IMG/VR virus record: IMGVR_UViG_3300037011_000606
Span: 31,098 to 95,097 of that record
Reading direction: 5' to 3' (one strand)
Source: a virus
Length of the DNA: 64,000 nucleotides
This document shows, piece by piece, positions 72 to 31,940 of this stretch. The position numbers were made by a program, and so were the translations under genes. Within the stretch, counting starts at the first letter, position 1, and the number at the start of each line of letters is the position of its first letter. The notes beneath the pieces were generated by a model. It was not told the origin of the DNA and made no database searches. It saw only the letters and a program-made list of their open reading frames with translations.

Positions 72-226
72 GTTCGGCGAACCTAGTCCAAAGCTGTATG
101 GGCTGCCCATACTTCTATGTGGATATGATAGTTGCATCTAATTTCACGGCTATACCTTACTGCCACTTACCCATCGGTACAATGTGTCCGAAGGTCACTC
201 TCATATATAAGGAGGATGGAATATGA
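68..226 (+). CDS. Small cysteine-rich protein upstream of queC
   Basis: This is a 52-residue protein that starts at ATG 68, overlapping the previous stop, and ends in TGA at 224-226, overlapping the queC ATG at 223. It carries a CMGC pair near residues 10-13 and further cysteines near 32 and 41, which suggests a small zinc- or metal-binding fold. I recognise no family. Its position between an unknown gene and queC, coupled to both, suggests a role in the same process (7-deazaguanine metabolism or nucleic-acid modification), but that is inference from context only. Confidence 0.6.
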   Translation: MSSANLVQSCMGCPYFYVDMIVASNFTAIPYCHLPIGTMCPKVTLIYKEDGI

Positions 227-2416: not shown

Positions 2417-3394
2417 CTAAACACCTCCAAACTTCATCTGAATTTCTTCTCCACTCAACAACGTTATACTCAAATCCCAATATAACATCCTATCTTCCAT
2501 CCTATTATACTTCCCACTAACATACTTTGTAAACCTATACATCATGATCGCAGTCTGTATATTCTTAGCTATTAAGCTAGGCTCGGTACTTTGCATAGCG
2601 CTCTCTGCGTCGAACCCAAATGCCAAATGAAAGATGTCATCCCCTAACCCAGTTCTCATTAACACCTCAATATCCTGCTTCACCTTATCCACACCATACA
2701 TCATCATTAACCTATTCGATCCATCAAAGACCAAATCCATCTTGGTATCCAGCTTCAACGTCTTTCCGTATATCCCCTCATCTACCACCCTATCACCAAT
2801 TGGCAGATCGGGCATGTTATAAGTAACCTCAAGAATAGGCTCTTGTCCGGGTACTGAAGGATTTCCCAAAGTCACATACTCATCGTTACCAAAGACAGGA
2901 GCGTCGCCAGAGATATCCCTGCTAGACATAATACATAGCTTAGTCCAACCACCTTTATTAATCCAGCTAATCCCCGTAGCATTCAACACAATATCATTAT
3001 ACACACCAATATTAACAGCCGCGGCACTCAATGAGCCGCCATTGCCAGAATACAACGTCCTATCATAGTCTCCCAATACCACCGGATCATGTGGATAGTC
3101 TGGCTGCCCATTTAACACCACAACATTAAACCCAGCTCCTATCATGGCAGCTTGACCTAACAATTGAAGCTTAACCCCAGATATAATTGCGCCGGTAGGA
3201 ATCGTTGAAGTATCAAATATCAACTCTCCACGATAAGTATAATACATCGGTGCGATAGTTACATATTGACCCACTTGAATATTCGCATAGATAGCCCATC
3301 CCAATGCTGCAGTTCTGCAAGTTGGATAGTCCATATCTCTATTACAAAGAGTCTTACCCTTGCTCAAATTATCCTTAACAATTAATACGGTCAT
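2417..3394 (-). CDS. gp25-like baseplate wedge protein fused to an N-terminal beta-sandwich
   Basis: The last ~115 of 325 residues match the gp25/GPW pattern: DIEVLMRTGLGDDIFHLAFGFD, then an amphipathic helix and a tyrosine-rich end with YWDLSITLLSGEEI. Members of this family are normally about 110-140 residues. Here about 200 extra residues precede it: a beta-rich domain with YRGELIFDTSTIPTGAIISGVKLQLLG and a closing EPILEVTY, which resembles the DNRLRE/disaggregatase-repeat type of carbohydrate-associated module. The ATG at 3394 has GAGGTGAT upstream and overlaps the previous stop. The fusion implies a sugar-binding or decorative module on the wedge, which is inference from fold resemblance. 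Confidence 0.8.
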   Translation of the reverse strand: MTVLIVKDNLSKGKTLCNRDMDYPTCRTAALGWAIYANIQVGQYVTIAPMYYTYRGELIFDTSTIPTGAIISGVKLQLLGQAAMIGAGFNVVVLNGQPDYPHDPVVLGDYDRTLYSGNGGSLSAAAVNIGVYNDIVLNATGISWINKGGWTKLCIMSSRDISGDAPVFGNDEYVTLGNPSVPGQEPILEVTYNMPDLPIGDRVVDEGIYGKTLKLDTKMDLVFDGSNRLMMMYGVDKVKQDIEVLMRTGLGDDIFHLAFGFDAESAMQSTEPSLIAKNIQTAIMMYRFTKYVSGKYNRMEDRMLYWDLSITLLSGEEIQMKFGGV

Positions 3395-17608: not shown

Positions 17609-18427
17609 TTACGTCAGCAGTCCAGTCAATTCCCTGCCCGCAGCTGAAACTCCCAGCAGCGGCTGCTGGAACTTCGCGACGGCATAGCCCTTGTTGAACT
17701 TGGCTCCACCATCGTACTGGCTCACTATGGTCGGCCCATCCGCGAGCGTAACGAAAGACGCCTTCCTATCTCCGATGATTGCCGTTGCGGCAACCAACGC
17801 TGCATCTCTCATTATCTCGAGATCGCCAATCATAGTTATGGCACCCGGCAGCACAGTCCTTCCTTCAGGATACGCGCCCCTCACATATGTGTTCGCAAGG
17901 AAGCTCGCATATACCGAGGACTGCATGCATATGACATCAGGCGAGTAACCAAGCTCTTCGAGCGTAGCCACCACCGGCATGATATCATCCATCGGGTTCG
18001 TGGCCGAAGCCTTCCAATTGCCGCCAGACACATCGATCAGTCCAACGAGTACCTCTCCTATCTGCTTGTTCTCCATCCTAGCGAGATCCCTGGCACCATC
18101 AGATACCTGAACCTGCATCAGATTAAACTTCGACTTGAGCGAAGCCTCATCCGACATGACTATGTGGATGACATTCTTCCAGCACTCGAAGTCCAGATCA
18201 GTGAAAGCAGCTGCATTGATTGCCCCTTCCACATTCTCAGGCACCTTCTCCTGACCAGCCATTACAGTCCCAATCGGGATGTGTGCTATGATCTCATTAC
18301 CAAGGTCAAAGACCCGGCAGAGCTTCCTCAGGTTGTACTGTGGCCTGGCCAATCCCAAGATCTCCTCTACGAAGACCTGGGCCTTCATCGCATCCGTAAC
18401 ATTATCCTTAATAATTATACCAGCCAT
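17609..18427 (-). CDS. Major capsid protein (HK97-fold)
   Basis: The start is set at ATG 18427 because GAGGTGAT lies four bases upstream, giving 272 residues. The layout fits a short HK97-fold capsid protein: helical N-arm (DAMKAQVFVEEILGLARPQYNLRKLCRVFDLG), a strand region IAHIPIG, an E-loop-like EKVPENVEGAINAAAFTDLDFECWKNV, spine helix with VSDGARDLARMENKQIGEVLVGLID, an A-domain with LEELGYSPDVICMQSSVYASFLANT, and a final P-domain strand. The gene follows scaffold and decoration genes, has the GC-richer codon choice of the sheath gene, and is followed by a terminator. Fold assignment is inferred from order and pattern. Confidence 0.85.
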   Translation of the reverse strand: MAGIIIKDNVTDAMKAQVFVEEILGLARPQYNLRKLCRVFDLGNEIIAHIPIGTVMAGQEKVPENVEGAINAAAFTDLDFECWKNVIHIVMSDEASLKSKFNLMQVQVSDGARDLARMENKQIGEVLVGLIDVSGGNWKASATNPMDDIMPVVATLEELGYSPDVICMQSSVYASFLANTYVRGAYPEGRTVLPGAITMIGDLEIMRDAALVAATAIIGDRKASFVTLADGPTIVSQYDGGAKFNKGYAVAKFQQPLLGVSAAGRELTGLLT

Positions 18428-18437
18428 GTGTATCACC

Positions 18438-18827
18438 TCACTGCAGAAGCAGTACCTCAGTCTCTGTCGCGGCCTTCACCGCATCCACCATAACGGTTCC
18501 TACAATGCTCATCAGGGTATCCTTATCCTGAGTAAGCAGAGCAGCAGCCGTTGCATTCCACTTGACGGACTGTCCCTGGAGCTGTATCTCGTTAGCCTTG
18601 GCGATTATGACACATCCCCTCAGCATAACGCGCAGCTCAACCTGTCCGGCACCTGTAGCTGCGTTCATTGCAACCCCATGGGGCCCAACGCCAGCATCAC
18701 CACAGACATTCCATCCATCAGTATCGAAGATGACAACTTGTCCCTTCGTTACAGTCACACCGGTCTTCGTAAGACCCTTCACGATCAAATACGGAAATCC
18801 ATCTCTTGTTATTTCACCTACTGCCAT
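18438..18827 (-). CDS. Capsid decoration/stabilising protein
   Basis: This 129-residue beta-rich protein, with VTKGQVVIFDTDGWNVCGDAGVGPHGVAMNAATGAGQVELRVMLRG (split for description), closely follows the pattern of small capsid-decorating proteins in which a 'VTKGDVV...AVGVAL' strand set is typical. It lies between scaffold and major capsid genes, as in many phages. GAGGTGAT precedes the ATG. It probably binds the outer shell. Confidence 0.75.
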   Translation of the reverse strand: MAVGEITRDGFPYLIVKGLTKTGVTVTKGQVVIFDTDGWNVCGDAGVGPHGVAMNAATGAGQVELRVMLRGCVIIAKANEIQLQGQSVKWNATAAALLTQDKDTLMSIVGTVMVDAVKAATETEVLLLQ

Positions 18828-18838
18828 TCAAATCACCT

Positions 18839-19333
18839 CTACTTGAGAGCATCCTCATGCCCAAAGTATTCCTTTCGGATAGTGCGCCTCTTCGCTTCCA
18901 TCTCAGAGAGGTTTCTCTCCGCTTCTGTCGGCTGAACTCCAGCAGTCTTCGGCTTGGGGTCGCCAACCGGAGGCTGAACAGACAGCTTCTCAATATCTTC
19001 CTTGAGAACTGTAAGCTCGGTCTTCGAAAGCTTAGTAAGTCGCTCTATATCCTTGGTCTTATCCTCCACTTTGGAGAGTCCCTTCGCAATGCGACCATCA
19101 ACAATGGAATTGAGGAGCTTATCCACTTCCATCTTGTCGATAGCTGCAAGCTGCTTGGACAACTCGTCCACTTTCTGCATAAGGGACGCCTTCTCCTTCT
19201 CCAAAGTCGCCTTCTCCGCCTTTAGAGAATCTATCTCCTGGGCAAGAGTCGCCAACTTCGGGTCGGGCTGCGACCCTGCAGTTGCCGGAGGATACGCTGC
19301 ATTATCAACCTTCTTTTCATCTGTTTCCGGCAT
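18839..19333 (-). CDS. Scaffolding-like coiled-coil protein
   Basis: The start is taken at ATG 19333, giving 164 residues. The region ~30-75 (EIDSLKAEKATLEKEKASLMQKVDELSKQLAAID) is an almost perfect heptad coiled coil and the whole protein is charged and helical, with a short basic C-terminus containing EAKRRTIRKEYFG. This is the usual form of a capsid scaffold, whose basic C-terminus binds the capsid protein. It is the first gene behind the 19.37 kb promoter. The leader is only about 12 bases and no strong ribosome site is seen. Confidence 0.8.
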   Translation of the reverse strand: MPETDEKKVDNAAYPPATAGSQPDPKLATLAQEIDSLKAEKATLEKEKASLMQKVDELSKQLAAIDKMEVDKLLNSIVDGRIAKGLSKVEDKTKDIERLTKLSKTELTVLKEDIEKLSVQPPVGDPKPKTAGVQPTEAERNLSEMEAKRRTIRKEYFGHEDALK

Positions 19334-19344
19334 TGAATTACACC

Positions 19345-19398
19345 TATATATATATATCTCGTACAAAGAATATATACAGGCAGGGAGGGGTATTGACT
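19345..19398 (-). promoter_or_regulatory. Late promoter of the capsid module with shared upstream element
   Basis: On the - strand the order is AGTCAATACCCCTCCC (19398-19383), then TATA-like GTATATATTC (19376-19367), CGAGATATATATA (19361-19349) and the scaffold ATG at 19333. The 16-base element occurs identically at 43748-43733 before the first late gene. A virus-coded activator probably binds there. It lies directly after the stop of the upstream gene. Confidence 0.75.
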
Positions 19399-19399
19399 C

Positions 19400-19807
19400 T
19401 CAATTTTCCATGAGCAGCTGAATAATCTCCTCAGTGGATATTCTTAGCTTACTATTCTTTGGGTATGGCCTACTTTGTAATATAGCCAACACCCCTTTCT
19501 TAGTCAAATGTTCCCCATTCTTAAACCTAACCATCACTTCTAAAAACCATTTCTTATCGATGAACCTAGTCATCGTAGAACAATTCTCTATACCATTTAT
19601 TCTTACAAACTCTGGCCTAATGGCACAAGTTACACTAATCTCCAATAAGTCCTCTTGTAATCTTCTCAATTGATAAAACCCTCCCCTCACCTCACAGTAA
19701 GGGCAGAGTCTTATCTTCCTCCCTCTTTTGGAGACCTGCACTCCACATATAACCCTATCTAACAACACCATACTACTATGCGATATTGTCAATTCTACAT
19801 ACCTCAC
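19400..19807 (-). CDS. Possible zinc-binding protein between protease and scaffold genes
   Basis: This frame of up to 135 residues contains VICGVQVSKRGRKIRLCPYCEVRGGFYQLRRL, with a CPYC pair and further cysteines that may bind zinc, and a basic lysine-rich C-terminal half ending in a helix (TEEIIQLLMEN). The frame opens at GTG 19807, overlapping the previous gene by 32 bases. ATG 19771 is an alternative start and neither has a good ribosome site. No family recognised. A nucleic-acid-binding role is possible. Confidence 0.6.
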   Translation of the reverse strand: MRYVELTISHSSMVLLDRVICGVQVSKRGRKIRLCPYCEVRGGFYQLRRLQEDLLEISVTCAIRPEFVRINGIENCSTMTRFIDKKWFLEVMVRFKNGEHLTKKGVLAILQSRPYPKNSKLRISTEEIIQLLMEN

Positions 19808-22601
19808 AGGCAGGATTCGCTACTATATTCACTCTATCATATTTCAATATCTTCTTAATTATACTCCGGACAGAGTCCACCAGTACCTCTATCTCAACCG
19901 AGAACCCCACATACGTCCCTTCCTCGATCTCTTTCTGCTTATCAACATTTGTAATAACCGTATCTATCATTATGGTATCATTCACAAAGTTAACACTAGC
20001 TACACTCCCATCCATATCCTCAAGATAATGGGGCCCCACACATACAGATATACCCATCATCCTTTCGGGCCTGTCCCTAACAACCTCTGGTGAGAACCAT
20101 TCTCCATTCCACACTCCATAGGAGAAAGCGGCCCCTCCCACATGGAAAAGACCATCTGGCCCCTTACCAAACTTACTAACGCTCATCATCATCCTACTCT
20201 TAACAATCTGCTCCCCCTTCTCCAAAGATAACTTGGACACTTCTACCTTACTCCACTTCCAATAATTAACCTCAGGAGAACTTCTCACCGCTTCATAAGT
20301 CCCCTGCAGTACTCCACCCAGGAAGTTATACCTCTTACACAAGGGCGTATCATCCAACACTATTACTTTTCCTGAATCCTTACGCTCAGTCCAAGACATC
20401 ATATCCTTGGTCTTATTACCAGGCGACCCCGGAGGTAAGAACTCAGGCCCTTCCTTACCCCTTTGAGAGAAGTCCTTGGCATAAGGCTTCCTAATAGCTC
20501 CCTCTGACTTACCCACAGGATCCTCAGTCAGCACCATCATATTATCCTCTATAAACAAATCCCAATGCTTGGTGCTCTCCTTCCACCAGTGGTAACTCAG
20601 TACAAACTCTCTAACCTCACATCCAACCTTCTCCAAGTGGCTAATCTCTAAGAAGCTAAGCTGTTTAGCATCCTCCTTAGATGTCACTGCGAAGTAATGC
20701 TTGCCAAACCTTTCAACCAAATAAGACCTCTTATCATACTTTGACACCACCGTAAAGATGGTATCTAGAGCATAAACATACTTATCCCTGATCTCCATCC
20801 TTTTATCCTTATTCTCGAACTCCCAATATCTATACTCCTTAGGAATAGTATCCTTAACTCTCTGAGGTAAGGCGCTAATCCCCATCTGTGGTATATATTC
20901 ACTCTTCTTCAGAACAAGGGGTCTGTCCTCAGTGCTCTTAGTAACCCATTTTCCATCCAGCTTTTTCATCTCGAACATCTGAGGATATCCTTCTAACCAA
21001 AACTCCTTATAATCTTCCAATTGAGCGCCCCACTCTACTATTCCTTGTTCTGAAAGCTGCGCAACACCCTCAATATCCTCGCTACCATTTTCTCCGTCCA
21101 CGGTCAACACCCCATTATTAACCCTATACTGATACACTCTTTCCACAGTATCATTCATCTTAAAATACATACCAGGTATCTTCCTAGCACTCTCCAAAAT
21201 ACTCTTGAGCCTATCTACCTCATCCTTACATACTCTACCAACACTCAACCCCACCATCCTTACCTTCTCACCATACTGATATACCCTGCGGGCTGTTAAC
21301 TCTACACCATCTCCCACAGCCAACTTCAACCCACTATTAACCTTCCCTATAAATACAAACACACCATCAAATACATCCTCTTTAGGAGTATCTATTCTTG
21401 CATCTCCACCCAACCCCACATAATACTCATTATTTCCTAACTCTTTAACCACCATTCCAACAAATTCCAACGTATTACTATAGACAAAGTACCCCTTCCC
21501 CTCAATCTCTCTTATCAATACGGGCCTAGTCTCCTTCATCAAATATCTCTCTAGGGTTAGCTCATCATCTATATAAGTCGTCCATCCGGCCATACAGCAA
21601 GGATAACCTTCAAATTGACGCTCGACTCGACTAATCCTCTCATTAAACACCATACTGCTAAGGTTCTCATCCCACCAATGGACATCTGTCAATTGCACCT
21701 GATACTTGAGATCCTCTCCCTTAACTAGAGTACTTGCCCCTCTTAAGAATCCTTCTACCCTCATCTCAGGATCCTTAGAAACAATAATACCCTCCAGCAT
21801 TATCTCCTTGACATCTTTTGCTTTGAGCATGCCGGTAAAACAAGGAAGCCTTCTAGACACATCCATCCCATTGTCCATTATCACAAACACTTCGCCATCT
21901 ACCTTATGCACCTGCACTCTCACTCCTTTAGAAAGCCGTTGTACCGAAACAGGGAATTTCAACAACTGTCCAGCTAGAGAGCTCAGCCCGTATAGGACAG
22001 TTGAAACTTCCTTAGGCTTAAAGTACTTCCCTGGTCTCGTGATGCCTTTATCCGACACCATAAACATCGGGTTAGGACTCTCTGATATATAGTTGGAGCT
22101 ATACACAGGTATATAACTCCCATCAGGCTGAGCAGTATGCAAAACCACTCTACTCGCATACTTCCCCATCAACTCATTTATATTACCTTCAGGCCCCTTA
22201 ACCACAATATCTATATTTCCTTTAGTCCTTCCCTTAGTTACAATCTCTCCAGTTAGAGATAAGGACCCACTCACATTAAATGGTAGCAGAAGCTCTAGAG
22301 CCTTCGTCAGAGTAATCTCTTCATTGGAGCTCTCTTCCATCTTCTTAGTATCCTCTACCCTTCCTAACGTTAACCTATCCAATTCATCCTTGATTCCATG
22401 ATCCAGCCCCAACTCTTTCAACCTCTCAACAAGGAGTTTATGTGTATTGTAGAAATCCTCCTTCGTCCAAACATACCCATCGGTAACAAACTCTCCACTT
22501 TTCCACTGGGCGAAAGCCTCATGCAATTTATGATGTATCATTAACACCTCACTCTCACCCAGCTTACCGACAGTCTCCACTAATCCCATATTTAACTTCA
22601 T
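19776..22601 (-). CDS. Prohead-protease-like protein fused to degenerate DNA-ligase-like and nucleotidyltransferase-like regions
   Basis: This 941-residue protein lies between portal and scaffold, where the capsid maturation protease is expected. The last ~90 residues fit an XkdF/HK97-type serine protease, with candidate His858 (VGPHYLED) and Ser901 (YVGFSVEIE), ending VANPACEVC. Residues ~105-175 hold LSLTGEIVTKGRTKGNIDIVV, resembling a nucleotidyltransferase G...DxD site with Asn in place of the first Asp. Residues ~190-480 follow an ATP-dependent DNA ligase: VSVQRLSKGVRVQVHKVDGEV where active ligases have K-x-D-G-x-R, then IMDNGMDVSRRLP (motif III-like) and EIMLEGIIV (motif IV-like). The nucleophilic lysine and the following Asp are replaced by Leu223 and Lys225. 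It is therefore probably a non-catalytic ligase fold. Starts in an ATGA overlap with portal. Confidence 0.75.
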   Translation of the reverse strand: MKLNMGLVETVGKLGESEVLMIHHKLHEAFAQWKSGEFVTDGYVWTKEDFYNTHKLLVERLKELGLDHGIKDELDRLTLGRVEDTKKMEESSNEEITLTKALELLLPFNVSGSLSLTGEIVTKGRTKGNIDIVVKGPEGNINELMGKYASRVVLHTAQPDGSYIPVYSSNYISESPNPMFMVSDKGITRPGKYFKPKEVSTVLYGLSSLAGQLLKFPVSVQRLSKGVRVQVHKVDGEVFVIMDNGMDVSRRLPCFTGMLKAKDVKEIMLEGIIVSKDPEMRVEGFLRGASTLVKGEDLKYQVQLTDVHWWDENLSSMVFNERISRVERQFEGYPCCMAGWTTYIDDELTLERYLMKETRPVLIREIEGKGYFVYSNTLEFVGMVVKELGNNEYYVGLGGDARIDTPKEDVFDGVFVFIGKVNSGLKLAVGDGVELTARRVYQYGEKVRMVGLSVGRVCKDEVDRLKSILESARKIPGMYFKMNDTVERVYQYRVNNGVLTVDGENGSEDIEGVAQLSEQGIVEWGAQLEDYKEFWLEGYPQMFEMKKLDGKWVTKSTEDRPLVLKKSEYIPQMGISALPQRVKDTIPKEYRYWEFENKDKRMEIRDKYVYALDTIFTVVSKYDKRSYLVERFGKHYFAVTSKEDAKQLSFLEISHLEKVGCEVREFVLSYHWWKESTKHWDLFIEDNMMVLTEDPVGKSEGAIRKPYAKDFSQRGKEGPEFLPPGSPGNKTKDMMSWTERKDSGKVIVLDDTPLCKRYNFLGGVLQGTYEAVRSSPEVNYWKWSKVEVSKLSLEKGEQIVKSRMMMSVSKFGKGPDGLFHVGGAAFSYGVWNGEWFSPEVVRDRPERMMGISVCVGPHYLEDMDGSVASVNFVNDTIMIDTVITNVDKQKEIEEGTYVGFSVEIEVLVDSVRSIIKKILKYDRVNIVANPACEVCRIDNIA

Positions 22602-23917
22602 TGAGACTCCTCCTCATCATCTGTATCATCTGTAGAACCCCCAGGTTCATCATCCACAGGCCCAGCCGGAGTTTTATCCGTACTCGGTAATCCGCCTTCC
22701 GGAGTTCCTGGCATTGCTCCGCCACCAGTCTTCGGAGGCATTATCTGTGCATCCAACATATACTGTTCAATATCCAAGATCCTGAACATCTCGCGCTTGG
22801 TCATGGTACCATTTGCCACCGCATATGTACAAGCTCTTAACAGCTGATAGTCTATTGGCGCAGCCTCAACCCACTGGTGCTTCACCCTGTAAACAAATGG
22901 GTCCTGCCCCATCGACCTAACAATGTTATCATACCACTGCTTCTCCAAATTCCTTCTCATAAACAACTGTTCCCAACCAACTGGGCCTTGATACAACGCT
23001 AGTAAAGCCGCATCCAAAGTGGCCCTTGTCGTAGTCTTCTCCCTACCTAGCAAAGTCTTAGGTATCCCCCAATTGCCTATGATCTCTTCATCACACTTCT
23101 CAATCGAACGGATAATCGCCATCAAATCTGGCTTAAGATCAATGACCTTCGCCTCAATCTTCTTATTATATATAACCGACTGCCCGGGCTTCAACTGATC
23201 CCTAAAAGAATTCATTGCTGTCGCTTTTTCTGCCTGTCCTCTAATATCTGACGTGTCCATGCAGAACAGTCCTATCGGCGCCCAATGCCTCTTGGAAGAC
23301 TCTTTGAGATCCCTCTCATACAACAACTTCGACTTGATGGGGCTCATGACCGTTGCTATCGAAGAAATACCCGTCTTATCTACTTCCATTGAGTCTAGAG
23401 CGAAGTACAACACCTCATTAGGTTTTAATATTCTCTCCCCACCAACTGTTCTATATATATAATAATTAATCTCCAGAGTCTTCTCATTAACCACTGGAGT
23501 AATATTACTGGAGATTAACGGAACCAAACTAGCTATATTCCCTTCACTATCTTTGGCTATCTCCCAGCCACAAGCACCATAAATATGTCGCTTAATAACA
23601 GTGGTATACAGCGCATTATCCATATTAACCAATCTATTAATCAGATCCACCTTTTCTTTGATCTTCTTACATATATCTGCACTAGGCCCCGTTACCGAGG
23701 TTCTAAAACCCTTCCTCACAGTATAATACCCAACAGAGTTAATGCTCCTCCTAACAATAGACACCTTCTTATAACCATCATATAACGTATTAACCGTAAT
23801 ATCATCATTTTCAATCGTGAGCATGCTCTCCACATTCCAGATAGTAGACAATGCCCTACCATTATCTGGATACTTTCCCGTCAATCTCTGCCCTAGCGTT
23901 CTCCTTACAGCTTCCAT
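22598..23917 (-). CDS. Portal protein
   Basis: This 439-residue protein lies directly downstream of TerL and has HK97/SPP1-type portal features: YKKVSIVRRSINSVGYYTVRKGF, a wing domain with PNEVLYFALDS and the clip-proximal GISSIATVMSPIKSKLLYERDLKESSKRH, GQSVIYNKKIEAKVIDLKPD, and WGIPKTLLGREKTTTRATLDAALLALYQ. The C-terminus is a flexible, acidic Pro/Gly tail. The portal is the DNA gateway and terminase docking ring. GAGGTG precedes the ATG. Confidence 0.93.
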   Translation of the reverse strand: MEAVRRTLGQRLTGKYPDNGRALSTIWNVESMLTIENDDITVNTLYDGYKKVSIVRRSINSVGYYTVRKGFRTSVTGPSADICKKIKEKVDLINRLVNMDNALYTTVIKRHIYGACGWEIAKDSEGNIASLVPLISSNITPVVNEKTLEINYYIYRTVGGERILKPNEVLYFALDSMEVDKTGISSIATVMSPIKSKLLYERDLKESSKRHWAPIGLFCMDTSDIRGQAEKATAMNSFRDQLKPGQSVIYNKKIEAKVIDLKPDLMAIIRSIEKCDEEIIGNWGIPKTLLGREKTTTRATLDAALLALYQGPVGWEQLFMRRNLEKQWYDNIVRSMGQDPFVYRVKHQWVEAAPIDYQLLRACTYAVANGTMTKREMFRILDIEQYMLDAQIMPPKTGGGAMPGTPEGGLPSTDKTPAGPVDDEPGGSTDDTDDEEESQ

Positions 23918-23928
23918 TTTAACACCTC

Positions 23929-25392
23929 TTAAAACGTTACGTATACTGGCACTTCTCTAACACCCTCAAGTGTATTCTCCGGCTTTAAATGCCAAACCAA
24001 ATTAACAACTGCATCAGCTACATCCTTAGATCCAGTTTTAGGATGATCTATCTTCTGCCCTCTGATCAATTCCACGGACTTTAACTCTTCTAACAACTTC
24101 TCGTAGTTCACAAACTCTAACTTACCACTGTAAGCAGATTCCTTAAAGGATGTATACTCCTTAACAGTAACATGATTCTGTATTATCTCTACTCCCTTTT
24201 CTCTGATAGATTGCAACGTCTCTGGATAGTTCCATATATCAGTTACAAAGATATCCAACTCACATCTCGTTGTCAAGTCAAATATAAAATCGGCAACCTC
24301 TTTAGCATCAATCTCTTTAATCTCATCAACATTTTTGAAAGGCTTGAACTCATGTATTATATCCACTATCGGTATATCTTTGTTCGGATCCAAATGACCA
24401 ACAGCAAGACCAAAACTATCATTCTTAACTGCGGGGTCACCAGCGGCAAAGTACTTTACCCCCGGCAACCCCCTCCAATCCGGATTAATTCTCCACCGAC
24501 CATCCGTTCCCTCATACGTTGGATTTTTAGCTCTTGAAATACAATTATCCAGCTTATACCCTTCCTTAAAGAACGTCTCAATAGCCGCGCTAGGTATAGC
24601 TCCCCAGTCCCTCCAAGCTGTTTCTGGATCCTTATCAAACTCATCTTCTAACATCTCAAACGTAATATTGGGATTCATCTCCCAAGTCGGCCAGCGCTTA
24701 CAATACCATCCAGGCTTGCCCTTGAACTGATTATATAACTCCATCGCATAGTCCTTTACATACATTGGCGAGGTGATAATAACCTTCCTACCATCCTTTC
24801 CAAATGTCTTAACACTCCTGGACAGAGTATCATAGACCATCGCCGCCGAAGAATTGCCACCAGTATCCTTAAACCTAGACAACTCATCGAAACTAACGCA
24901 GATGATAGTCTTCCCTGCTAGAGAGGCGCTATTACTATGCTCACTTCGAAGTATAACTTTGCCATCCCTCGTCGGGAAGATATACTCATTATAATGTTCT
25001 ATGTACTTCTGCTCCTGGAACCAAGGGCTATTAGCTATTCTCGCTTTAACATGGGCGAAAACAGTATCCTTCGCCTGTCTATCAGACGTAGCTACATTAA
25101 TAATAAAGATTTCGGTCCCTGCAGGCAACCCATAGTACTTGCATGGAGTCCCTCTAGATATCATCTTAAAAGCCTCATAGCAGGTTATTATAGAGGCCGT
25201 AGTAGTTTTGCCACTCCTCATCCCACATATTAACACGGTGTTCTGAATTCCTGGTTTGTAAAACTCAGTCAATACTTCTATTTGCTTTGGCCAAAGCCAT
25301 CCAATTCCCAGGTGCTTCTTGACGAAATATAAAACGTCATCGTACGCCTTCATATCATCAATCATCCGCCCTGAGAGAGGATTATCCATCAT
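23929..25392 (-). CDS. terL: Terminase large subunit
   Basis: This 487-residue packaging motor has a Walker A GMRSGKTT (57-64), Walker B ICVSFDE (164-170) with the catalytic Glu after Asp, a coupling motif IITSP (205-209), and an RNase H-like nuclease domain with Asp319 (AAGDPAVKN), Asp385 (FVTDIWN) and Asp457/Asp460 (SKDVADA). All key residues are present, so it should be active. The ATG overlaps the stop of the tailspike gene. The tailspike gene sits directly upstream, while the candidate small subunit is about 18 kb upstream at the operon head, an unusual separation. Confidence 0.97.
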   Translation of the reverse strand: MMDNPLSGRMIDDMKAYDDVLYFVKKHLGIGWLWPKQIEVLTEFYKPGIQNTVLICGMRSGKTTTASIITCYEAFKMISRGTPCKYYGLPAGTEIFIINVATSDRQAKDTVFAHVKARIANSPWFQEQKYIEHYNEYIFPTRDGKVILRSEHSNSASLAGKTIICVSFDELSRFKDTGGNSSAAMVYDTLSRSVKTFGKDGRKVIITSPMYVKDYAMELYNQFKGKPGWYCKRWPTWEMNPNITFEMLEDEFDKDPETAWRDWGAIPSAAIETFFKEGYKLDNCISRAKNPTYEGTDGRWRINPDWRGLPGVKYFAAGDPAVKNDSFGLAVGHLDPNKDIPIVDIIHEFKPFKNVDEIKEIDAKEVADFIFDLTTRCELDIFVTDIWNYPETLQSIREKGVEIIQNHVTVKEYTSFKESAYSGKLEFVNYEKLLEELKSVELIRGQKIDHPKTGSKDVADAVVNLVWHLKPENTLEGVREVPVYVTF

Positions 25393-26672
25393 TACACCGT
25401 ACCAGTATTCGCACTATCCTGTGAGCCAGCCCCAGTCTTATTTATAGTATTTGTCCCCGCGCCATGGGAAGTATTCCCTACTATATGGTTCTTCGAACCA
25501 GATTCATCGACAGCATACTTATGTACAGTTGCTCCAGAGGCTGTTACATGGTTACCAGTCGCTGAACAATATGTACAAGTATTCATATTTATACCACTAT
25601 ATGTATTGCTAGCATCTTGGCTGCAATCCACTATAGAATTACCACTAATCAATACCTCATTCGACGTTGCCAAGTTTATACCATGCGCCCCTACCTTCTC
25701 GATATGATTACCTGTGATAACACCATTCCCTGTAGATGCATTAATCCCCAGATTATCCGCATTGTATATCTCATTACCAGAGACCACAAACCTTTCCACT
25801 ACAGATATGCCATTATAACAAGTATTAATCACATTTCCCTTTACAACAGTATCAAACCACTTGGCCCATATAGCAGACAACACCCCAGTGTGATTATTTA
25901 TACCATTCCCAGATATCACACAATTAGATGGAGAATTAGTCGTCCATATTACAGCAATAGCTACGCTGGTAGAAGCAGACATATCTATCTGATTACCATT
26001 CACAAACGCATATCCACACGAAGTATTCCTACAATCTATAACCACTCCGGAATACCCCTGACCGTTCATCTCATTATCAGTAATATGCACATTCACTATA
26101 TCATTAGTGGAATAGTACAAGTACACACAGTGCTGATTCGCGTTATAGAAGTAATTATCCTCTATCCACACATTCTTCGAGTCATAGTCACCGTTACCAA
26201 TAGCATTCAGATATGCATCATAGAAGTAACAGTTGCTAATAACTAAATCATTAGCACTAACTATCTTTAGATCCTCAGTTCCACCAGTCTGATTAGCTTT
26301 GTTTCCATCGAAGGATATACCTCTAATTACTATATGATTCCGTTGAGTAGCCACTTCTCCTATATCCAATACACTATCATCAAGGCCATTCGCTTTCTTT
26401 ACAATGGCTCCTTTCTCTCCGACCAACGCGATATTATGTCCTTGAATAGTCCAACTAGCAGCTACGGTATAAGTACCTGCCATAAGGAAGACAGTTCCTC
26501 CACCATCAGCCTCGCACTGATCTATTGCAGCTTGTACCGTAGTAAAATCACCATAAAGACCAGCCGGATCCACATGGTAAACCCTACCCCTAATTCCTTG
26601 TTCCATCCGGTTCATATCTTCATCGGTTATTATTTCGGCTGCCCATGTCTTAAACGAATAATTCGCTACCAT
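25392..26672 (-). CDS. Tailspike-like right-handed beta-helix protein (pectate-lyase type)
   Basis: After a short N-terminal part (EDMNRMEQGIRGRVYHV), residues from ~35 show the entry to a parallel beta-helix: YGDFTTVQAAIDQCEADGGGTVFLMAGTYTV, then many repeats of the type ISGNxIxN, VTGNHI and ITDNEM, each one rung. Such proteins bind or cleave surface polysaccharide. Catalytic residues cannot be picked from sequence alone. The position directly before TerL, away from the other fibres, is unusual. The extreme C-terminus (GAGSQDSANTGTV) is typical of beta-helix trailing ends. Confidence 0.85.
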   Translation of the reverse strand: MVANYSFKTWAAEIITDEDMNRMEQGIRGRVYHVDPAGLYGDFTTVQAAIDQCEADGGGTVFLMAGTYTVAASWTIQGHNIALVGEKGAIVKKANGLDDSVLDIGEVATQRNHIVIRGISFDGNKANQTGGTEDLKIVSANDLVISNCYFYDAYLNAIGNGDYDSKNVWIEDNYFYNANQHCVYLYYSTNDIVNVHITDNEMNGQGYSGVVIDCRNTSCGYAFVNGNQIDMSASTSVAIAVIWTTNSPSNCVISGNGINNHTGVLSAIWAKWFDTVVKGNVINTCYNGISVVERFVVSGNEIYNADNLGINASTGNGVITGNHIEKVGAHGINLATSNEVLISGNSIVDCSQDASNTYSGINMNTCTYCSATGNHVTASGATVHKYAVDESGSKNHIVGNTSHGAGTNTINKTGAGSQDSANTGTV

Positions 26673-27125
26673 TTACACCACCTCGAAATCGAAATCCCAT
26701 ATTATATGAAGCGCATCTGGCGCTCCTTTAACTATTGGCCCTATTACTACCCTCGCGGCGCACTTCCTCGCCCCCTTCACAGCGTTTTTATCTGCTATTA
26801 CAGACTCCTTGATCGTCCCGGTACCTACTCCTGCACCAAATTCAAAATAGCAACGGCATCTATGACCTACTCTTGCATTAGTACAAGATCCTCTAGCCAT
26901 CTCCGCACCTTGTAGATCTGTTTGAGAGATATCAACTGCTGTATCGCTATCCCCAATAGATATGCATTTCAGATTGGTCGGAACGCCTATCCCACCCAAT
27001 CTATCTATTATAATCTCATACCCATCTTCCAAGAGTAAATTGTGACGTTCCCCACTATCAATTACCTTACCATCTCGACGCAGTTCCCAAATTACATTAG
27101 CCTTAACACCAATCTTCATTTCCAT
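26673..27125 (-). CDS. Tail fibre-associated protein
   Basis: This 150-residue protein has the pattern KANVIWELRRDGKVIDSGERHNLLLEDGYEIIIDRLGG, found in small tail-tip proteins in which an RDG..VI..GE.HN..T..G strand is common. The later part is beta-rich. The start may be ATG 27125 or ATG 27119, the latter in an ATGA overlap with the previous stop. It follows the baseplate-like gene and precedes the tailspike, so it may connect the two. Role inferred. Confidence 0.7.
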   Translation of the reverse strand: MEMKIGVKANVIWELRRDGKVIDSGERHNLLLEDGYEIIIDRLGGIGVPTNLKCISIGDSDTAVDISQTDLQGAEMARGSCTNARVGHRCRCYFEFGAGVGTGTIKESVIADKNAVKGARKCAARVVIGPIVKGAPDALHIIWDFDFEVV

Positions 27126-27841
27126 GTTTGCGCCCCCGTTGTTACATTCAGCGACTCCGTTTTAGTTATTCCAGTAACATGAAAGTTACCACCTATACAA
27201 TCTACAGTGATATCATTCTCTAACTGGTTAGAAAACCCATCAAACATAACTCCAGCTGCCTTCTTTTCATTTACTGTAGTGACAGCCAAATCCCACCTCT
27301 CATCGGATATTAATGTAGCATCATGATTAATCACACACGCATTGAAATGACCATAAGCTGCATCTCTAAGATAACCATCATTTATCTGGAGCTCTGCTTC
27401 CACAATCCCCAATATTGATGCGAGAGCTTGCCTCAACGCGGGAATAGTTCCTCCACCATAGAGTGTTGGTACTATATTCTTAATTCGTAATCTAAATGAG
27501 GTGTCCGTCTCATCAGTCATCCTATAGCAACCTACCAAACTGCCTATATTTTCTAACCCAACCCCTTCAGCATCATCCACCCAATGCTGCTCCTCTATAA
27601 CCCCTATCATACTTTGAATTAGGCACAATTGCTCCGCCTCAATCCCCACCACCTTATAAATATTACCATCGCTATCTAGATAATACAACCAAGGAAACCT
27701 ATCAAGTATCCTCTCTCTAATAGAGCAGGGTGAAAATAGAGAATTAACCCTTAGTATTGGGAGTTGGTGACCTATTCCTATCACACTATGAAACTTCGAG
27801 AGATGTACTCCATCTCCACTGATCAGCTTATACGGTATCAA
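27116..27841 (-). CDS. Baseplate wedge/tail protein (gpI-like position)
   Basis: This 241-residue protein starts at TTG 27841 with GGAG eight bases upstream. The N-terminal half contains RERILDRFPWLYYLDSDGNIYKVVGIEAEQLCLIQ and VDDAEGVGLENIGSLVGCYRMTDETDTSFRLRIKNIVP, the helical arrangement and 'D..LRxRI' style of wedge proteins that follow baseplate J (gpI/YmfQ-like). The TALREAL-like PALRQALASILGIVEAE supports this. It is far from the main baseplate cluster, so it may be specific to the host-range module. A 12-bp inverted repeat brackets its 5' end. Confidence 0.7.
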   Translation of the reverse strand: MIPYKLISGDGVHLSKFHSVIGIGHQLPILRVNSLFSPCSIRERILDRFPWLYYLDSDGNIYKVVGIEAEQLCLIQSMIGVIEEQHWVDDAEGVGLENIGSLVGCYRMTDETDTSFRLRIKNIVPTLYGGGTIPALRQALASILGIVEAELQINDGYLRDAAYGHFNACVINHDATLISDERWDLAVTTVNEKKAAGVMFDGFSNQLENDITVDCIGGNFHVTGITKTESLNVTTGAQTWK

Positions 27842-27853
27842 GTCACCAACTCC
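27760..27853. repeat. 12-bp inverted repeat flanking the 5' end of the gpI-like gene
   Basis: GGAGTTGGTGAC at 27760-27771 and its exact complement GTCACCAACTCC at 27842-27853 are 70 bases apart. The right arm contains the ribosome site of the TTG-started gene and the left arm lies in codons ~24-27. In mRNA they could pair and hide the ribosome site. As DNA, they could be recombination arms. Confidence 0.7.
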
Positions 27854-27861
27854 TGTTTGAT

Positions 27862-28176
27862 CTACTTCGGCTTCTCCCCTTCTTTCTTATCTACTTCCTC
27901 TGGCGTCTTTGTATCCAAAGGCTTAACATCTTCATCATCTTTCTCTTCTACTTTCTCTTCCTTCGGCGGGATCGCCTTCTCTATATACAGATATAGCACC
28001 CCACATACTATGCCCACGATCAGCATACCCAAGCCCTCTGCCCAAGCCACCATATCTGCCGACCCGATATTATCTTTCAACACGCTCACACCCAAAGGTA
28101 TCATCACAACTGCTATCATCAGCAGAAGTGCTTCTACCTTCTTAATTCCTTCATCATCCCTAAACTGTACTTTCAT
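27862..28176 (-). CDS. Holin-like two-helix membrane protein
   Basis: The start is taken at ATG 28176 because GAGGTGAAAG lies upstream, giving 104 residues. Two hydrophobic helices, KKVEALLLMIAVVMIPLGVSVL and WAEGLGMLIVGIVCGVLYLYI (split for description), are joined by a short polar turn, and the C-terminus is highly charged (KEEKVEEKDDEDVKPLD...). This is the usual topology of small holins. It lies next to a second membrane protein of XhlA type. No peptidoglycan hydrolase is present nearby, consistent with an archaeal host. Confidence 0.7.
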   Translation of the reverse strand: MKVQFRDDEGIKKVEALLLMIAVVMIPLGVSVLKDNIGSADMVAWAEGLGMLIVGIVCGVLYLYIEKAIPPKEEKVEEKDDEDVKPLDTKTPEEVDKKEGEKPK

Positions 28177-28181
28177 ATCTT

Positions 28182-28451
28182 TCACCTCACAAACAACGCT
28201 ATCAACGCACTTATCGCAGTTATAATCAATCCCCATATAGCTATCTTGGTATTCACACTATCCTTACTGTCATCTTTCTGCTTTTCGTAATTCTCTATCC
28301 AATTTTGCACTTTAGATGTTGCCATTTCCGCAGCATTCAATCTCTTGAATATCTCACTAGAGTCAGTTGAGAACTTCTCCACATTCTCTCTTATTACGGA
28401 CAGGCACCCTTTGATCTCCCCAATTTCCCTGTCAATACTTTCCTTTGCCAC
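28182..28451 (-). CDS. XhlA-like membrane protein
   Basis: This 89-residue protein has an N-terminal amphipathic coiled-coil helix (EIGEIKGCLSVIRENVEKFSTDSSEIFKRLNAAE), a charged linker, and one C-terminal membrane helix IAIWGLIITAISALIALFV ending in Arg. This is the layout of XhlA/haemolysin-type proteins encoded next to holins. Together with the two-helix neighbour it probably forms the lysis or membrane-lesion module. Its start lies inside a short upstream frame. Confidence 0.7.
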   Translation of the reverse strand: MAKESIDREIGEIKGCLSVIRENVEKFSTDSSEIFKRLNAAEMATSKVQNWIENYEKQKDDSKDSVNTKIAIWGLIITAISALIALFVR

Positions 28452-28561
28452 TTTTCAACCTCCTCAGTGTCAACATCAGCTATCCCACCATTATGATTAG
28501 CATACTCTATCTTCTTAATATTCCTTTCAATTATATCCAAGCAATCTGTGATTAAGCACAT
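28394..28561 (-). CDS. Possible 55-residue protein overlapping the XhlA-like gene
   Basis: An ATG at 28561 with GGAGG three bases upstream opens a frame of 55 codons (MCLITDCLDIIERNIKKIEYANHNGG ... GRSKGACP, split). It fills the otherwise empty gap between two genes and overlaps the XhlA-like gene by 58 bases in another frame. The strong ribosome site is the main support. No family recognised. Confidence 0.5.
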   Translation of the reverse strand: MCLITDCLDIIERNIKKIEYANHNGGIADVDTEEVEKWQRKVLTGKLGRSKGACP

Positions 28562-28570
28562 CGTCCTCCC

Positions 28571-28882
28571 TCACAGGATATTCTCCCAAACTCTAAATGA
28601 GCCAATCTCCGTCTTCCAAGATCCTCCAGTAATGGCTATCTTCGCTTGAATCTTCCACATGCCCTCTATATCAAGATCACCTGCGGCAGAAGTTGTCCAA
28701 TAGATCTTCCCATCCGTACCATCAGTCTCGAAGGAAGCGGTCTTAGTCAGCGTAGTACCATCCGGCTTCTCAAAGTATATCTCCTTAACCGTCGCGGATG
28801 ATATATCAACAACAACACCGTCATTCTTAACGGTGATAAGGAACTTAGTTCCAACATCCCCGATATGTATCTCTTCTGTCAT
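28571..28882 (-). CDS. BppU-like N-terminal domain protein
   Basis: This 103-residue protein (IGDVGTKFLITVKNDGVVVDISSATVKEIYFEKPDGTTLTKTASF, split here) has the pattern of the N-terminal domain of BppU-type baseplate upper proteins, an Ig-like module that attaches receptor-binding proteins. Here it stands alone. It starts in an ATGA overlap with the 833-residue gene upstream, suggesting that the two products act together as adaptor and receptor-binding protein. Confidence 0.75.
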   Translation of the reverse strand: MTEEIHIGDVGTKFLITVKNDGVVVDISSATVKEIYFEKPDGTTLTKTASFETDGTDGKIYWTTSAAGDLDIEGMWKIQAKIAITGGSWKTEIGSFRVWENIL

Positions 28883-31380
28883 AGTTCAAATTCCTCCGTA
28901 TCTTCCTCTTCAATATTAAGCGCAAATTCTACTTTGTGCGGAATTAAGGTTACTGTACCTTGCAATACGTAGAATGGTATATCAGTTCCAGCAGGCGTTG
29001 TATCGTACCAAACACCGTTATATTTATAGAGAGAACTTCCTAACAAATATCCATTTCCACCATATGCTATCCTTCCAGCCCCCACAGGATCATCAGTCCC
29101 CATTATGACTATATACATATTACCAGGAACTAATGCTGGACATCCTGTTAAATTGAATATTGCCCAGTTACCATTATCCGAAAGTCCAGCCTTTCCGAAG
29201 GTTTCCTTGAATATAGGCGGTTCAACGGGCGCGCCGCCACTTGTTTCATATATCTCTATAAACTCAGATACAGGATCAATATACCCAACTCTCTTTTTCA
29301 CATACATTTTAACCCTAGCAACTGGGTCAGCAGTCACCGCTATAAATCTCTGCCCCCATTTTAAATTAGATGCAAACCAACTCCAAGAACAACCAGTTAT
29401 CGTTAGATATGATATAACAGTTCCTGAAGTTTGTAGTTCACCCATTGCTACATCCAACTCTATAGAAGCATCCTTACAGATAACTCCATTATTTCTTATC
29501 ATCTTCGAATTAGCATCAGCTTGCCATATATGTATCTTCTTTAAACATTCACTATACCCCGACCATGTAAGACCTTGATTAGTTGATCTAGTTTCTGTAC
29601 CATGATGATAATAACATGGCTGTACATTATGATGCCAATAATTATAGTTACTCTGACTAGGAGCAACGGATGTAACTACAAAGCCATATCTTACATCAGG
29701 CATTAGCCAACCCTTTGTAGTGAATTCGAAAGTTCTCCATTTATCAGACCATCCACCACTACCATATGGTATATCATCCTTTGTGAGTTCCCTTCTAGCT
29801 ATAACAACATTCAAATCGGGAGTATCGTCTGGTTTCAACGGGCATATCATAACTACGAGAGGCGTGACTGGAGGTCTACTATCACTTGTAACAGCCACAT
29901 TTGTTTCAAACCACTGTGCTTCAAATATATGTTCTACTTCAAATCGTTGACACCACCAGCTGTTTAACCATATAGCAGAGCCCCCACCCATACCTGTAGT
30001 TCTATACCAATACTCTCCTCTTACACCTTCTGCTATCTCTCCTAACTCCAAGTCAATCTCCCTTAGAGAGTCGACATCTAACCCAATCTCATGGATATCT
30101 GGCGCAACACTCTCGTCTATTAACTCCAGCTCAAATTCCTTTGTAACTCCTATCTCAGAGACCAGCCACTCCTCGAAAAGAGCATCCCAAGTATACAAAA
30201 ACTTCCAACTCCCACCAGTATACTCACAAGCTCTCCCTCCAAGATATGGACCGGTGGCATTCATCTTCCAACTACGGTTGCCACTAACTTGTACCTCACT
30301 TACAAACGCATACATTGTTCCAGCTTGTAATACAGCAACCTCACCATTGAAATTGACATAATGATCAGGAGCTTCCCAACCCCTAGTATAATTAGTATAC
30401 ACCCAGGAAGATATACGAGTGTTTGGTAGCCCACCCACCGTATTATATATAGCCCATCTTATATAATTAGGCGCGCTGTAATTCCACGCACCACCCATAT
30501 TCATTCTCCATAACCCACCTGTAATCGATGGAGTAAAGGTTTGTGCGAGCATAAGCCCAGTACTCGAAATCGAAGGTGGAGGATGAATCATTTGTTGCTG
30601 ATCTATGCCTCCAACAGCTACCATATGAACATTGTCCAAATCCAAATTAACCAGCTGAGTCTTCTCCCTATCAAGTATAAATCTCTCAACACCCTGCAAT
30701 ATATTAGACTCGACAATAAATCCGAAAGGTAAGTCATATTGAGTAATCTTCCTCCAAACAGGTGGTGACCTATTCGAATACACAAACTCTCCGCCAGGAT
30801 AGCTCGCAGGATACAAATGGTTTAAGCTTATCTTCCACTTACTAGCGATCTCATCGGACCTATACATAAACCCATACTTTACCCCAACTGTCAACACCAA
30901 GGGGCTAGCGAAGTCATAAATCTCCCAAGTATCCACTGTTGATGGTGCATCAGCCGGGTCAATTAATATTTGAGCTAAGGTCGCGCCAGTTGGCCAGCCC
31001 AATCCATCTAGCTCCTTTATCTCTATAATAAAGGGCAATGTTGGCGGATTTGCAACATTCTTATATATAGGAACATTCACCCCAGTTATGATAACCGGAT
31101 CAGTGAGAGTAAACTGCTGACACCAAAGGTATATACCCCCACAATCCATTCCATAACCTATACCCGGAGGATAGTATCCAACTCTAACATCCCTCTTCTC
31201 CAAATCAGCTTCCAACTCAAAATCTACTACATTCTCGAAGCTCGACTCCAGTTCAAATGGAGCTAGGTTCTCAGTCTCCAACTCAATATTCACTATCTCA
31301 TGAGTTACATCTCCATCAGTATACCCATAACCCAATGTTACCAGGGCGCCTTCCCCAAAGCCATGTGTAACTATCGTCAT
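28879..31380 (-). CDS. Large modular tail protein with four beta-sandwich modules and acidic linkers
   Basis: This 833-residue protein contains about four related modules of ~150 residues. Each has a 'W(C)QxF...' start (LWCQQFTLTD, LMLAQTFTPS, SWWCQRFEVE, LKWGQRFIAV), a central DGLGWPTG/GGLPNT-type loop, and a closing strand with G(V/T)KYGFM, GTMYAFV, DVRYGFVV or GNMYIVI. Between modules are acidic strands such as LETENLAPFELES and EFELELIDES, and the last residues are EEDTEEFEL. The modules look like carbohydrate-binding sandwiches. A receptor-binding role is inferred. The ATGA overlap couples it to the BppU-like gene. Confidence 0.7.
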   Translation of the reverse strand: MTIVTHGFGEGALVTLGYGYTDGDVTHEIVNIELETENLAPFELESSFENVVDFELEADLEKRDVRVGYYPPGIGYGMDCGGIYLWCQQFTLTDPVIITGVNVPIYKNVANPPTLPFIIEIKELDGLGWPTGATLAQILIDPADAPSTVDTWEIYDFASPLVLTVGVKYGFMYRSDEIASKWKISLNHLYPASYPGGEFVYSNRSPPVWRKITQYDLPFGFIVESNILQGVERFILDREKTQLVNLDLDNVHMVAVGGIDQQQMIHPPPSISSTGLMLAQTFTPSITGGLWRMNMGGAWNYSAPNYIRWAIYNTVGGLPNTRISSWVYTNYTRGWEAPDHYVNFNGEVAVLQAGTMYAFVSEVQVSGNRSWKMNATGPYLGGRACEYTGGSWKFLYTWDALFEEWLVSEIGVTKEFELELIDESVAPDIHEIGLDVDSLREIDLELGEIAEGVRGEYWYRTTGMGGGSAIWLNSWWCQRFEVEHIFEAQWFETNVAVTSDSRPPVTPLVVMICPLKPDDTPDLNVVIARRELTKDDIPYGSGGWSDKWRTFEFTTKGWLMPDVRYGFVVTSVAPSQSNYNYWHHNVQPCYYHHGTETRSTNQGLTWSGYSECLKKIHIWQADANSKMIRNNGVICKDASIELDVAMGELQTSGTVISYLTITGCSWSWFASNLKWGQRFIAVTADPVARVKMYVKKRVGYIDPVSEFIEIYETSGGAPVEPPIFKETFGKAGLSDNGNWAIFNLTGCPALVPGNMYIVIMGTDDPVGAGRIAYGGNGYLLGSSLYKYNGVWYDTTPAGTDIPFYVLQGTVTLIPHKVEFALNIEEEDTEEFEL

Positions 31381-31931
31381 ACCACTCTATTCCTTTGAGC
31401 TATTGCCCCTGCAGATAACACCACAGGATTATCGAACTTATCCATAATAACCATATTATACAACACTGCATCCCCAGCATCATTCCAAATCTGATAGCGA
31501 CTGTTTAACTCATCCCAGGTCATTTTATTAGTCAAGAACCTTTTCATAAAGGTTAAGTCATCAGCACTTACGCCTATCATTGTCGCCGAAGACGATTGCG
31601 ATATCACTGTATTTGTATAAGCGGCCGGATATATCGGATCATAAGTTGCTACCAGATTCCCACCTCTAACATAACAATTCGTCCAGGTAGGTCCAGCTCT
31701 ATCTGCAAATTTCAACTTCCAGCCATACCTAAACTCTAACGTTATCCCTACGTAAGATCCCGCGCCCAACCCTTGCTTACCACTGGGCAGGATAAAATCC
31801 TCAATATCCAAGTTATCTTGTTCATCCTGCCAATCTCTAACAGCATCCACAATCTGCTGTATAGTAACCTCCTCGGTAGGTAAATCTACCACAAGCCACT
31901 TATTAACTTCATCAAATGTGAAGGTTACCAT
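31377..31931 (-). CDS. Tail fibre region protein, beta-rich
   Basis: This 184-residue protein begins with a strand-helix unit, FDEVNKWLVVDLPTEEVTIQQIVDAVRDWQDEQDN, followed by YVGITLEFRYGWKLKFADRAGPTWTNCYVRGGNLVA, a pattern often seen in phage proteins next to fibres. It ends in a helix-turn part with MTWDELNSRYQIWN. It lies between two modular fibre proteins and overlaps the next start. Family unknown. A structural adaptor role is plausible. Confidence 0.65.
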   Translation of the reverse strand: MVTFTFDEVNKWLVVDLPTEEVTIQQIVDAVRDWQDEQDNLDIEDFILPSGKQGLGAGSYVGITLEFRYGWKLKFADRAGPTWTNCYVRGGNLVATYDPIYPAAYTNTVISQSSSATMIGVSADDLTFMKRFLTNKMTWDELNSRYQIWNDAGDAVLYNMVIMDKFDNPVVLSAGAIAQRNRVV

Positions 31932-31940
31932 ACATCCACC

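Follow-up and report, generated by a model that had tools for sequence, protein, structure and literature searches.

A predicted capsid protease joined to decayed DNA ligase and LigD-type phosphoesterase domains in a conserved virus head gene module

Introduction

Why would a virus build a capsid protease and the remains of DNA end-processing enzymes into one polypeptide? The question is raised by a gene of the linear, 95,097-base virus record IMGVR_UViG_3300037011_000606, of which we analysed bases 31098-95097 (64,000 nucleotides, hereafter the window; positions are those of the window unless a locus or record is named). The gene is one continuous open reading frame (ORF) located at 19776-22601 on the minus strand and encodes 941 amino acids; across the same interval the plus strand contains 30 stops. 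From the ORF, domain HMMs, an AlphaFold2 model and structural alignments, its product (called here the fusion protein) can be divided, from the N-terminus, into a helical motif, a nucleotidyltransferase (NTase)-like remnant, a ligase adenylation domain with an OB-like region, half of a first 3'-phosphoesterase (PE1), a conserved linker, a second phosphoesterase (PE2) and a capsid protease. We propose, with a probability of about 0.52, that it is a C-terminal capsid protease carried on a polyprotein descended from a head-associated DNA end-processing enzyme that combined NTase, ligase and 3'-phosphoesterase (PE) activities. As read from the sequence, decay has reached the active sites of ligase, PE and NTase but spared the His/Ser pair of the protease, a pattern more in keeping with a structural or targeting role than with catalysis.

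Results

A C-terminal domain of the capsid protease type

Used as a single-sequence query against Pfam, PHROGs and PDB sequences (phmmer), the fusion protein gave no significant match, and alignments of a family of relatives, designated by locus labels such as L003, L012 and L069, were therefore required. Profiles of the ligase, PE1, PE2 and protease domains were built from relatives only and tested against 1000 shuffles of the fusion protein. An AlphaFold2 model was made from a 27-row alignment. The pLDDT values of this model are mostly 80–93 in the ligase core and mostly 70–93 in the PE1 half, PE2 and the protease; they are low between residues 356 and 519. All domains described below lie on the minus strand.

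The putative capsid maturation protease occupies residues 797-937 (19791..20213) and includes a C-terminal NPACEVC. A profile made from the C-termini of L010 (= L003), L012 and L036 scored 78.2 bits on the fusion protein, against 6.4 bits for the best shuffle, and the model of residues 797-929 aligns with T4 gp21 (5jbl) over 133 residues with a Z-score of 13.3 (VIA-align). The earlier note on this DNA had proposed a C-terminal prohead protease with His858 and Ser901; both residues are found at these positions and align with the conserved His and Ser of L010, L012 and L036. With common members removed, the C-terminal subfamily matched an XkdF-type profile in hhalign with 88% probability (E 3e-6), His and Ser being in register. 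The fusion-protein sequence alone gave no hhalign link to this profile, and it was matched by neither PF14550 nor PF04586 at E 0.001. The predicted protease is a divergent subfamily, tied to the XkdF/gp21 type by hhalign and structure. As expected of a capsid protease gene, the fusion gene is located between the portal and major capsid protein (MCP) genes.

XkdF-type protease genes are widely annotated "DNA methyltransferase" in Pseudomonas phage PAK_P1 and its relatives, and PHROG 1530 bears the same name over an XkdF domain. The PAK_P1 protein was considered as a methylase fusion and rejected, being a 156-aa protein that consists mostly of the XkdF match itself. The C-terminal part of phrog_14859, labelled "RNA ligase", also matches XkdF, and A0A516LT18 is the best viral structural match (BFVD).

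A ligase fold that has lost its nucleophile

Residues 182-359 (21525..22058) correspond to a degenerate adenylation domain of an ATP-dependent DNA ligase, as judged from HMM, motif alignment and fold. The held-out ligase profile matched residues 216-327 with 27.3 bits (E 1.5e-7; best of 1000 shuffles 5.0). The modelled adenylation fold aligns with 9dfa over 169 residues (Z 16.2, rmsd 2.6; VIA-align), and the top PDB matches of the model in Foldseek are archaeal DNA ligases (E 5e-9). PF01068 itself gives 15 bits, under its curated cut-off of 26.2. The region that follows, residues 360-455 (21237..21524), may be OB-fold-like: ligase alignments reach residue 421, the remainder is inferred, and the confidence of the model is low.

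The earlier note had read ligase motifs I, III and IV in this part of the protein, with the nucleophile lysine and the Asp of KxDG changed. The alignment bears out the domain and both substitutions (Leu223 and Lys225), so that the KxDG of motif I is absent; agreement with motif III is only partial, its Glu having been lost. That note had also suggested a structure comparison with DNA ligases, and the predicted folds are indeed those of a ligase and, at the C-terminus, of a capsid protease, rather than unrelated ones.

In the family, the nucleophile Lys is present in 51 of 55 ligase rows. The four others are the fusion protein, L034 (Lys to Arg), L023, which has an intein next to the motif, and L021, located at a contig edge. 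In the protease-fused L061 there is no PF01068 match, a motif-like stretch (QRIEKGLRC) being visible by eye. The three clear dead ligases (fusion protein, L034 and L061) are all found within protease-fused proteins.

Phosphoesterase folds and an NTase-like remnant

Besides the minus-strand orientation, our analysis adds to the earlier note a LigD-type phosphoesterase with an intact fold and the C-terminal half of another. The former, PE2, spans residues 663-788 (20238..20615). It was detected by the held-out profile (56.8 bits; best of 1000 shuffles 4.0), and its model matches the LigD 3'-phosphoesterases 3p43 and 3p4h with Z-scores of 15.0 and 14.4, respectively (VIA-align). PE2 reads HWW...HWDL, and the Arg of H.D.R is not retained. 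The latter, the PE1 half with its linker, occupies residues 506-611 (20769..21086) and was defined by its held-out HMM and the conservation of the lost block: the profile gave 40.9 bits at model positions 114-242 only (best of 1000 shuffles 5.8). The missing half is the one that carries the metal- and phosphate-binding H-H-D-R residues; the PE1 residues H, G, S, H, D and R are near-invariant among the family rows that cover them. Loss of this half by truncation or frameshift was rejected: the ORF is unbroken, and in-frame similarity to the relatives is found both before and after the gap. The invariant linker of the family (GAQ...ALP...IPKEYRYW) is kept within the 506-611 stretch.

The PF13298 active-site pattern H...H-x-D-x-R is thus found in neither PE1 nor PE2, and PF13298 had no match in the 95-kb record at E 0.001. 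Outside the fusion protein, PF01068, PF14550, PF04586 and PF13298 have no match anywhere in this record. A PE profile run against PDB sequences gave no significant result, yet both of its matches were LigD phosphoesterases. The identity of the PE domains was settled by structure comparison.

Upstream of the ligase, residues 91-139 (22185..22331) retain a pol-beta-NTase-like motif, recognised by held-out HMM and alignment. The G...NxD site that the earlier note had seen there is weak but real (18.9 bits, E 7e-5; best of 1000 shuffles 5.5). It reads G118-E119 ... N129-I-D131, against GG ... D-I-D in relatives; the first Asp of DxD is Asn129, and the pattern hG[GS]...DxD is not found. For the L069 NTase domain, the best matches of a model with pLDDT 64 are MNT/NTase structures, all weak (Z 5.0 or less).

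The N-terminal residues 14-85 (22347..22562) form a small motif of AlphaFold2-predicted helices that is shared, at 39% identity (E 1.6e-6), with the N-terminal part of the product encoded upstream of the L003 ligase. This short motif (LHxx...NLHxLVVxEM..RG..H) recurs near N-termini at 22347-22562 of the window and in L003, L012, L026, L028 and L041. In L003 it gives a weak match to the Pyr_excise profile.

The fusion protein is one form of a conserved gene module

A tblastn search of 50,697 phage records gave a single match, ANMV-1, a virus of methane-seep archaea (E 1e-5). The conserved stretch taken from the aligned ANMV-1 and fusion proteins retrieved four relatives in viral contigs, and a re-scan with a conserved-core alignment yielded 58 viral loci and 9 loci in metagenome-assembled genomes (MAGs). 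The latter are labelled Methanosarcinales, Archaeoglobales (two), Thermoprotei, Geothermarchaeota, another Euryarchaeota, Omnitrophota, Planctomycetota and an unassigned bacterium; where named, the hosts of the family are mostly archaeal. In the phylum of the Methanosarcinales MAG, 9 of 392 genomes have a match. Single-sequence scans of viral contigs detected no relatives, and scans with the portal protein and the terminase large subunit (TerL) were equally empty; the family was reached only through the conserved-core alignment.

Pfam recognises in the relatives DNA_ligase_A_M (down to 1e-40), LigD_N, the 3'-phosphoesterase of LigD (1.4e-5 in L003 and 1.8e-4 in L064, both below the curated cut-off), and Peptidase_S78_2/XkdF, with 7.4e-14 in L039 and 1.7e-23 to 3.4e-32 in the top-scoring fused members. 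Judging by their conserved residues, most relatives are probably catalytically intact in both ligase and PE. PF01068 matched in 18 of the 20 related records searched, the two without a match being L034 and L061. L060 and L063 encode a second, stand-alone ligase elsewhere in the record, indicating that the ligase of the head module is more than a replication ligase placed there.

Neighbouring genes were labelled with domain-restricted profiles. Ligase and PE are encoded as fused or adjacent genes between portal and MCP. Of 56 dereplicated loci, 15 have the protease fused to the ligase/PE protein and 27 encode it within three genes downstream; the MCP lies within four genes downstream in 28, and a portal gene is found upstream in 22, a count to be read knowing that many contigs end early and that the portal profile is insensitive. 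In the ANMV-1-like group, the protease gene is not recognised by the family profiles; a DUF2213 gene is the second downstream in L069 and L027. The order portal–ligase–PE–protease–MCP is thus a conserved gene module, of which the fusion protein represents one variant. On a tree of the PE core, well-supported branches show a minimum of three changes between the fused and the separate state (five by parsimony). With a branch length of 2.03, where the median is 0.33, the fusion protein stands on a very long branch, which makes its place in this tree unsure.

Several relatives carry additional domains. A D12/Dam methylase is present in L013, L031 and L054, and in L026 and L041 a Dam-type (D12) methylase in the head-module polyprotein apparently replaces the ligase (by eye). 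The ligase-PE protein of L037 (5280-9404) includes a PAPS-reductase domain at residues 115-286 (2.7e-24); the DNA phosphorothioation protein DndC is of the same superfamily. A metallo-beta-lactamase fold was found in L017, L076, L048, L054, L063 and L049, and DUF6884 in L003 and L012. Inteins or homing endonucleases (LAGLIDADG) interrupt module ligase and NTase genes in L023, L060, L063, L048 and L054. The intein of L023 (4620-9827, plus strand) lies near residue 740 and ends beside the ligase active-site motif; in L003, an intein/homing endonuclease is located in the gene neighbouring the ligase (1816-4014). The L036 gene (4575-10319) directly follows the portal gene and encodes 1914 amino acids with two ligase domains, an NTase motif, PE1, PE2 and protease. 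L004 (4987-8099) and L011 carry a near-copy of the L003 gene whose frame is broken past the linker, by a frameshift or an assembly error.

Head genes and other neighbours in the window

The minus-strand cluster runs from TerL (23929..25392; PHROG 6.9e-23) and portal (22598..23917; Pfam PF04860 1.2e-12) to the fusion gene, whose start shares 4 bases with the portal gene, and then to a coiled-coil protein (18839..19366), a head decoration (cement) protein (18438..18827; PF09956 2.9e-6) and the MCP (17609..18436; PHROG 1650 1.5e-12). The coiled-coil protein is a probable scaffold, identified partly by eye: its C-terminus, KRRTIRKEYFGHE, is similar when read by eye to that of the equivalent L003 gene, KKKEIRKRLFGHE.

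The same virus encodes, by sequence, probable 7-deazaguanine genes: QueC, QueD-, QueE- and FolE2-like proteins and a TGT/DpdA-like protein (window 223-939; L078 18545-19330; L079 7270-9699; record bases 18545-32036), suggesting that its DNA may carry a modified guanine. In L003, a TGT-like protein (PHROG 887, 2.6e-8) directly precedes the ligase/protease gene, to which DUF6884 is fused.

Discussion

A proposed end-repair kit attached to the capsid protease

Capsid proteases of the gp21, XkdF and S78 types act in the procapsid on scaffold, MCP and themselves, so the protein fused to such a protease is probably enclosed and cut free. LigD-type PE strips 3'-phosphates and ribonucleotides and leaves a ligatable 3'-OH; PE and ligase can therefore be seen as a heal-and-seal pair. 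Enzymes packaged in phage heads have precedents in T4 Alt and in DarB of P1 (PMC5512222). The most likely scheme is that relatives package a DNA end-healing and sealing polyprotein with their genome, and that in the virus studied here its body persists without activity, as a scaffold or a targeting portion of the protease. The polyprotein body would carry the protease into the procapsid, beside the portal or the scaffold, and at maturation the protease would cut itself and the scaffold free. In relatives with active enzymes, the freed ligase and PE would stay packaged and be delivered into the host along with the DNA. There they could clean up 3' ends and seal nicks or termini, allowing repair or circularisation of the injected genome. 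Here this enzymatic role would be lost, and the leftover fold would be an inert segment used for targeting, as a scaffold or possibly for DNA binding.

Some observations weigh against this scheme. Packaging, cleavage and ejection are deduced from the fusion and the gene order. Many relatives encode ligase and PE separately, untied to a protease. No Ku was detected in the 20 related records searched, which rules out a canonical non-homologous end joining (NHEJ) set. Finally, it takes close relatives to tell structural use of the body from neutral decay, and viral-contig scans found none.

The separate ligase and PE proteins of many relatives, and the position of the genes right after portal and TerL and ahead of the MCP, would also fit a ligase/PE module that acts in the infected cell at packaging. 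It would mend nicks or blocked 3' ends of concatemers before or during translocation at the portal, its fusion to the protease serving only as a tether to the packaging vertex. We consider this rather unlikely: in fused members the C-terminal part is a capsid protease, a type that acts inside the procapsid, where the fused enzymes would be enclosed with it, and the two relatives with a stand-alone ligase keep it for general use.

Since the enzyme appears dead in this virus, the remaining body either serves assembly or is decaying. That the N-terminal 790 residues are a functionless passenger, the protease alone being of importance, would agree with the lost catalytic residues of ligase, PE1 and NTase and with the very long branch. 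It is nevertheless improbable, as the ORF has stayed open across 941 codons, the folds of ligase, PE2 and linker are confidently predicted, and the invariant IPKEYRYW is retained. Decay of the ligase in L034 and L061, both protease-fused, moreover suggests a tolerated, stable state. The roles put forward in the earlier note for a dead ligase domain (binding of ends or nicks, tethering of TerL, internal scaffold) would all be compatible with these data. Its DNA-binding version, in which the domain still binds DNA or nicks and would hold genome ends, nicks or TerL in place within the procapsid, is an equally improbable alternative. The modelled persistence of the core fold without the catalytic Lys and the presence of the PE2 fold might suggest it; the low confidence of the OB-like region speaks against it.

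Extended to the family, the proposal of a protease borne on a head-associated repair polyprotein becomes more tentative. Many archaeal and some bacterial tailed viruses might build an end-repair kit into the procapsid, release it by the attached protease and send it into the host along with the genome, whose ends it would heal and seal with no need of Ku or of enzymes of the host. This kit could comprise a 3'-phosphoesterase, an ATP-dependent ligase and sometimes an NTase, a metallo-beta-lactamase-fold protein, a Dam methylase or a PAPS-reductase-like domain. In some lineages, including this virus, the dead enzyme could have been kept as a part for capsid assembly.

The module recurs in dozens of uncultured viruses, mislabelled or unlabelled in databases, and links capsid maturation with DNA end repair. 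It raises a testable question: by what means are the linear genomes injected by viruses of ANME, Archaeoglobales and other archaea protected, repaired or circularised? Within a single capsid protein, moreover, nature provides a graded series of enzymes that runs from active to dead.

Comparison with known systems

The sole annotated member of the family, and the only deposited phage genome among those searched to contain the conserved core, is ANMV-1. Its protein AJP62006.1 (KP703175.1), annotated "ATP-dependent DNA ligase", is colinear with the fusion protein (NTase-ligase-PE-PE; BLASTP 8e-12, tblastn 1e-5) and likewise adjoins the portal gene. It differs in having intact ligase catalytic residues (DNA_ligase_A_M 5.9e-17, KKFDGVHVR kept) and no protease domain. 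The gene directly before it (KP703175.1 1913-3193), annotated "MutT-like phage hydrolase", is a portal protein by PF06381 (3.2e-22). The text of the ANMV-1 paper mentions no ligase, capsid or portal.

With gp21 (5jbl), XkdF (PF14550) and the HK97-type S78 proteases (PF04586), the C-terminal domain shares the fold, the His/Ser pair and the location between portal and MCP; the fusion protein adds about 790 residues of DNA-repair-like domains before the protease. Both repair folds are those of LigD, the protein of bacterial and archaeal end joining (PF13298; 3p43, 3p4h), and of ATP-dependent DNA ligase (PF01068), and the relatives have the H-H-D-R of PE and the KxDG of ligase. In contrast to LigD, domain order and partners are different, and in the fusion protein the catalytic residues are lost. 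LigD carries a primase-polymerase and no capsid protease. In mycobacteriophages Omega and Corndog, a phage Ku uses the host LigD for genome circularisation. The chemistry on phage genome ends would be of the same LigD type; there, however, Ku is phage-encoded and LigD belongs to the host, whereas ligase and PE of the module are viral and no Ku was found.

The fusion protein also resembles the polyvalent phage proteins (Iyer et al. 2017, PMC5512222), which are large and multidomain, have domains that act on nucleic acids and have been proposed to be packaged and injected; in some of them a portal or MuF is part of the fusion. The main text of that survey does not mention XkdF, and has "ligase" only as RNA ligases. 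A search of open-access full texts, with subscription papers and preprints outside its reach, retrieved no report of a ligase/capsid-protease fusion. The family thus appears to be undescribed: its parts are known, and their combination and conserved place in the head module appear to be new.

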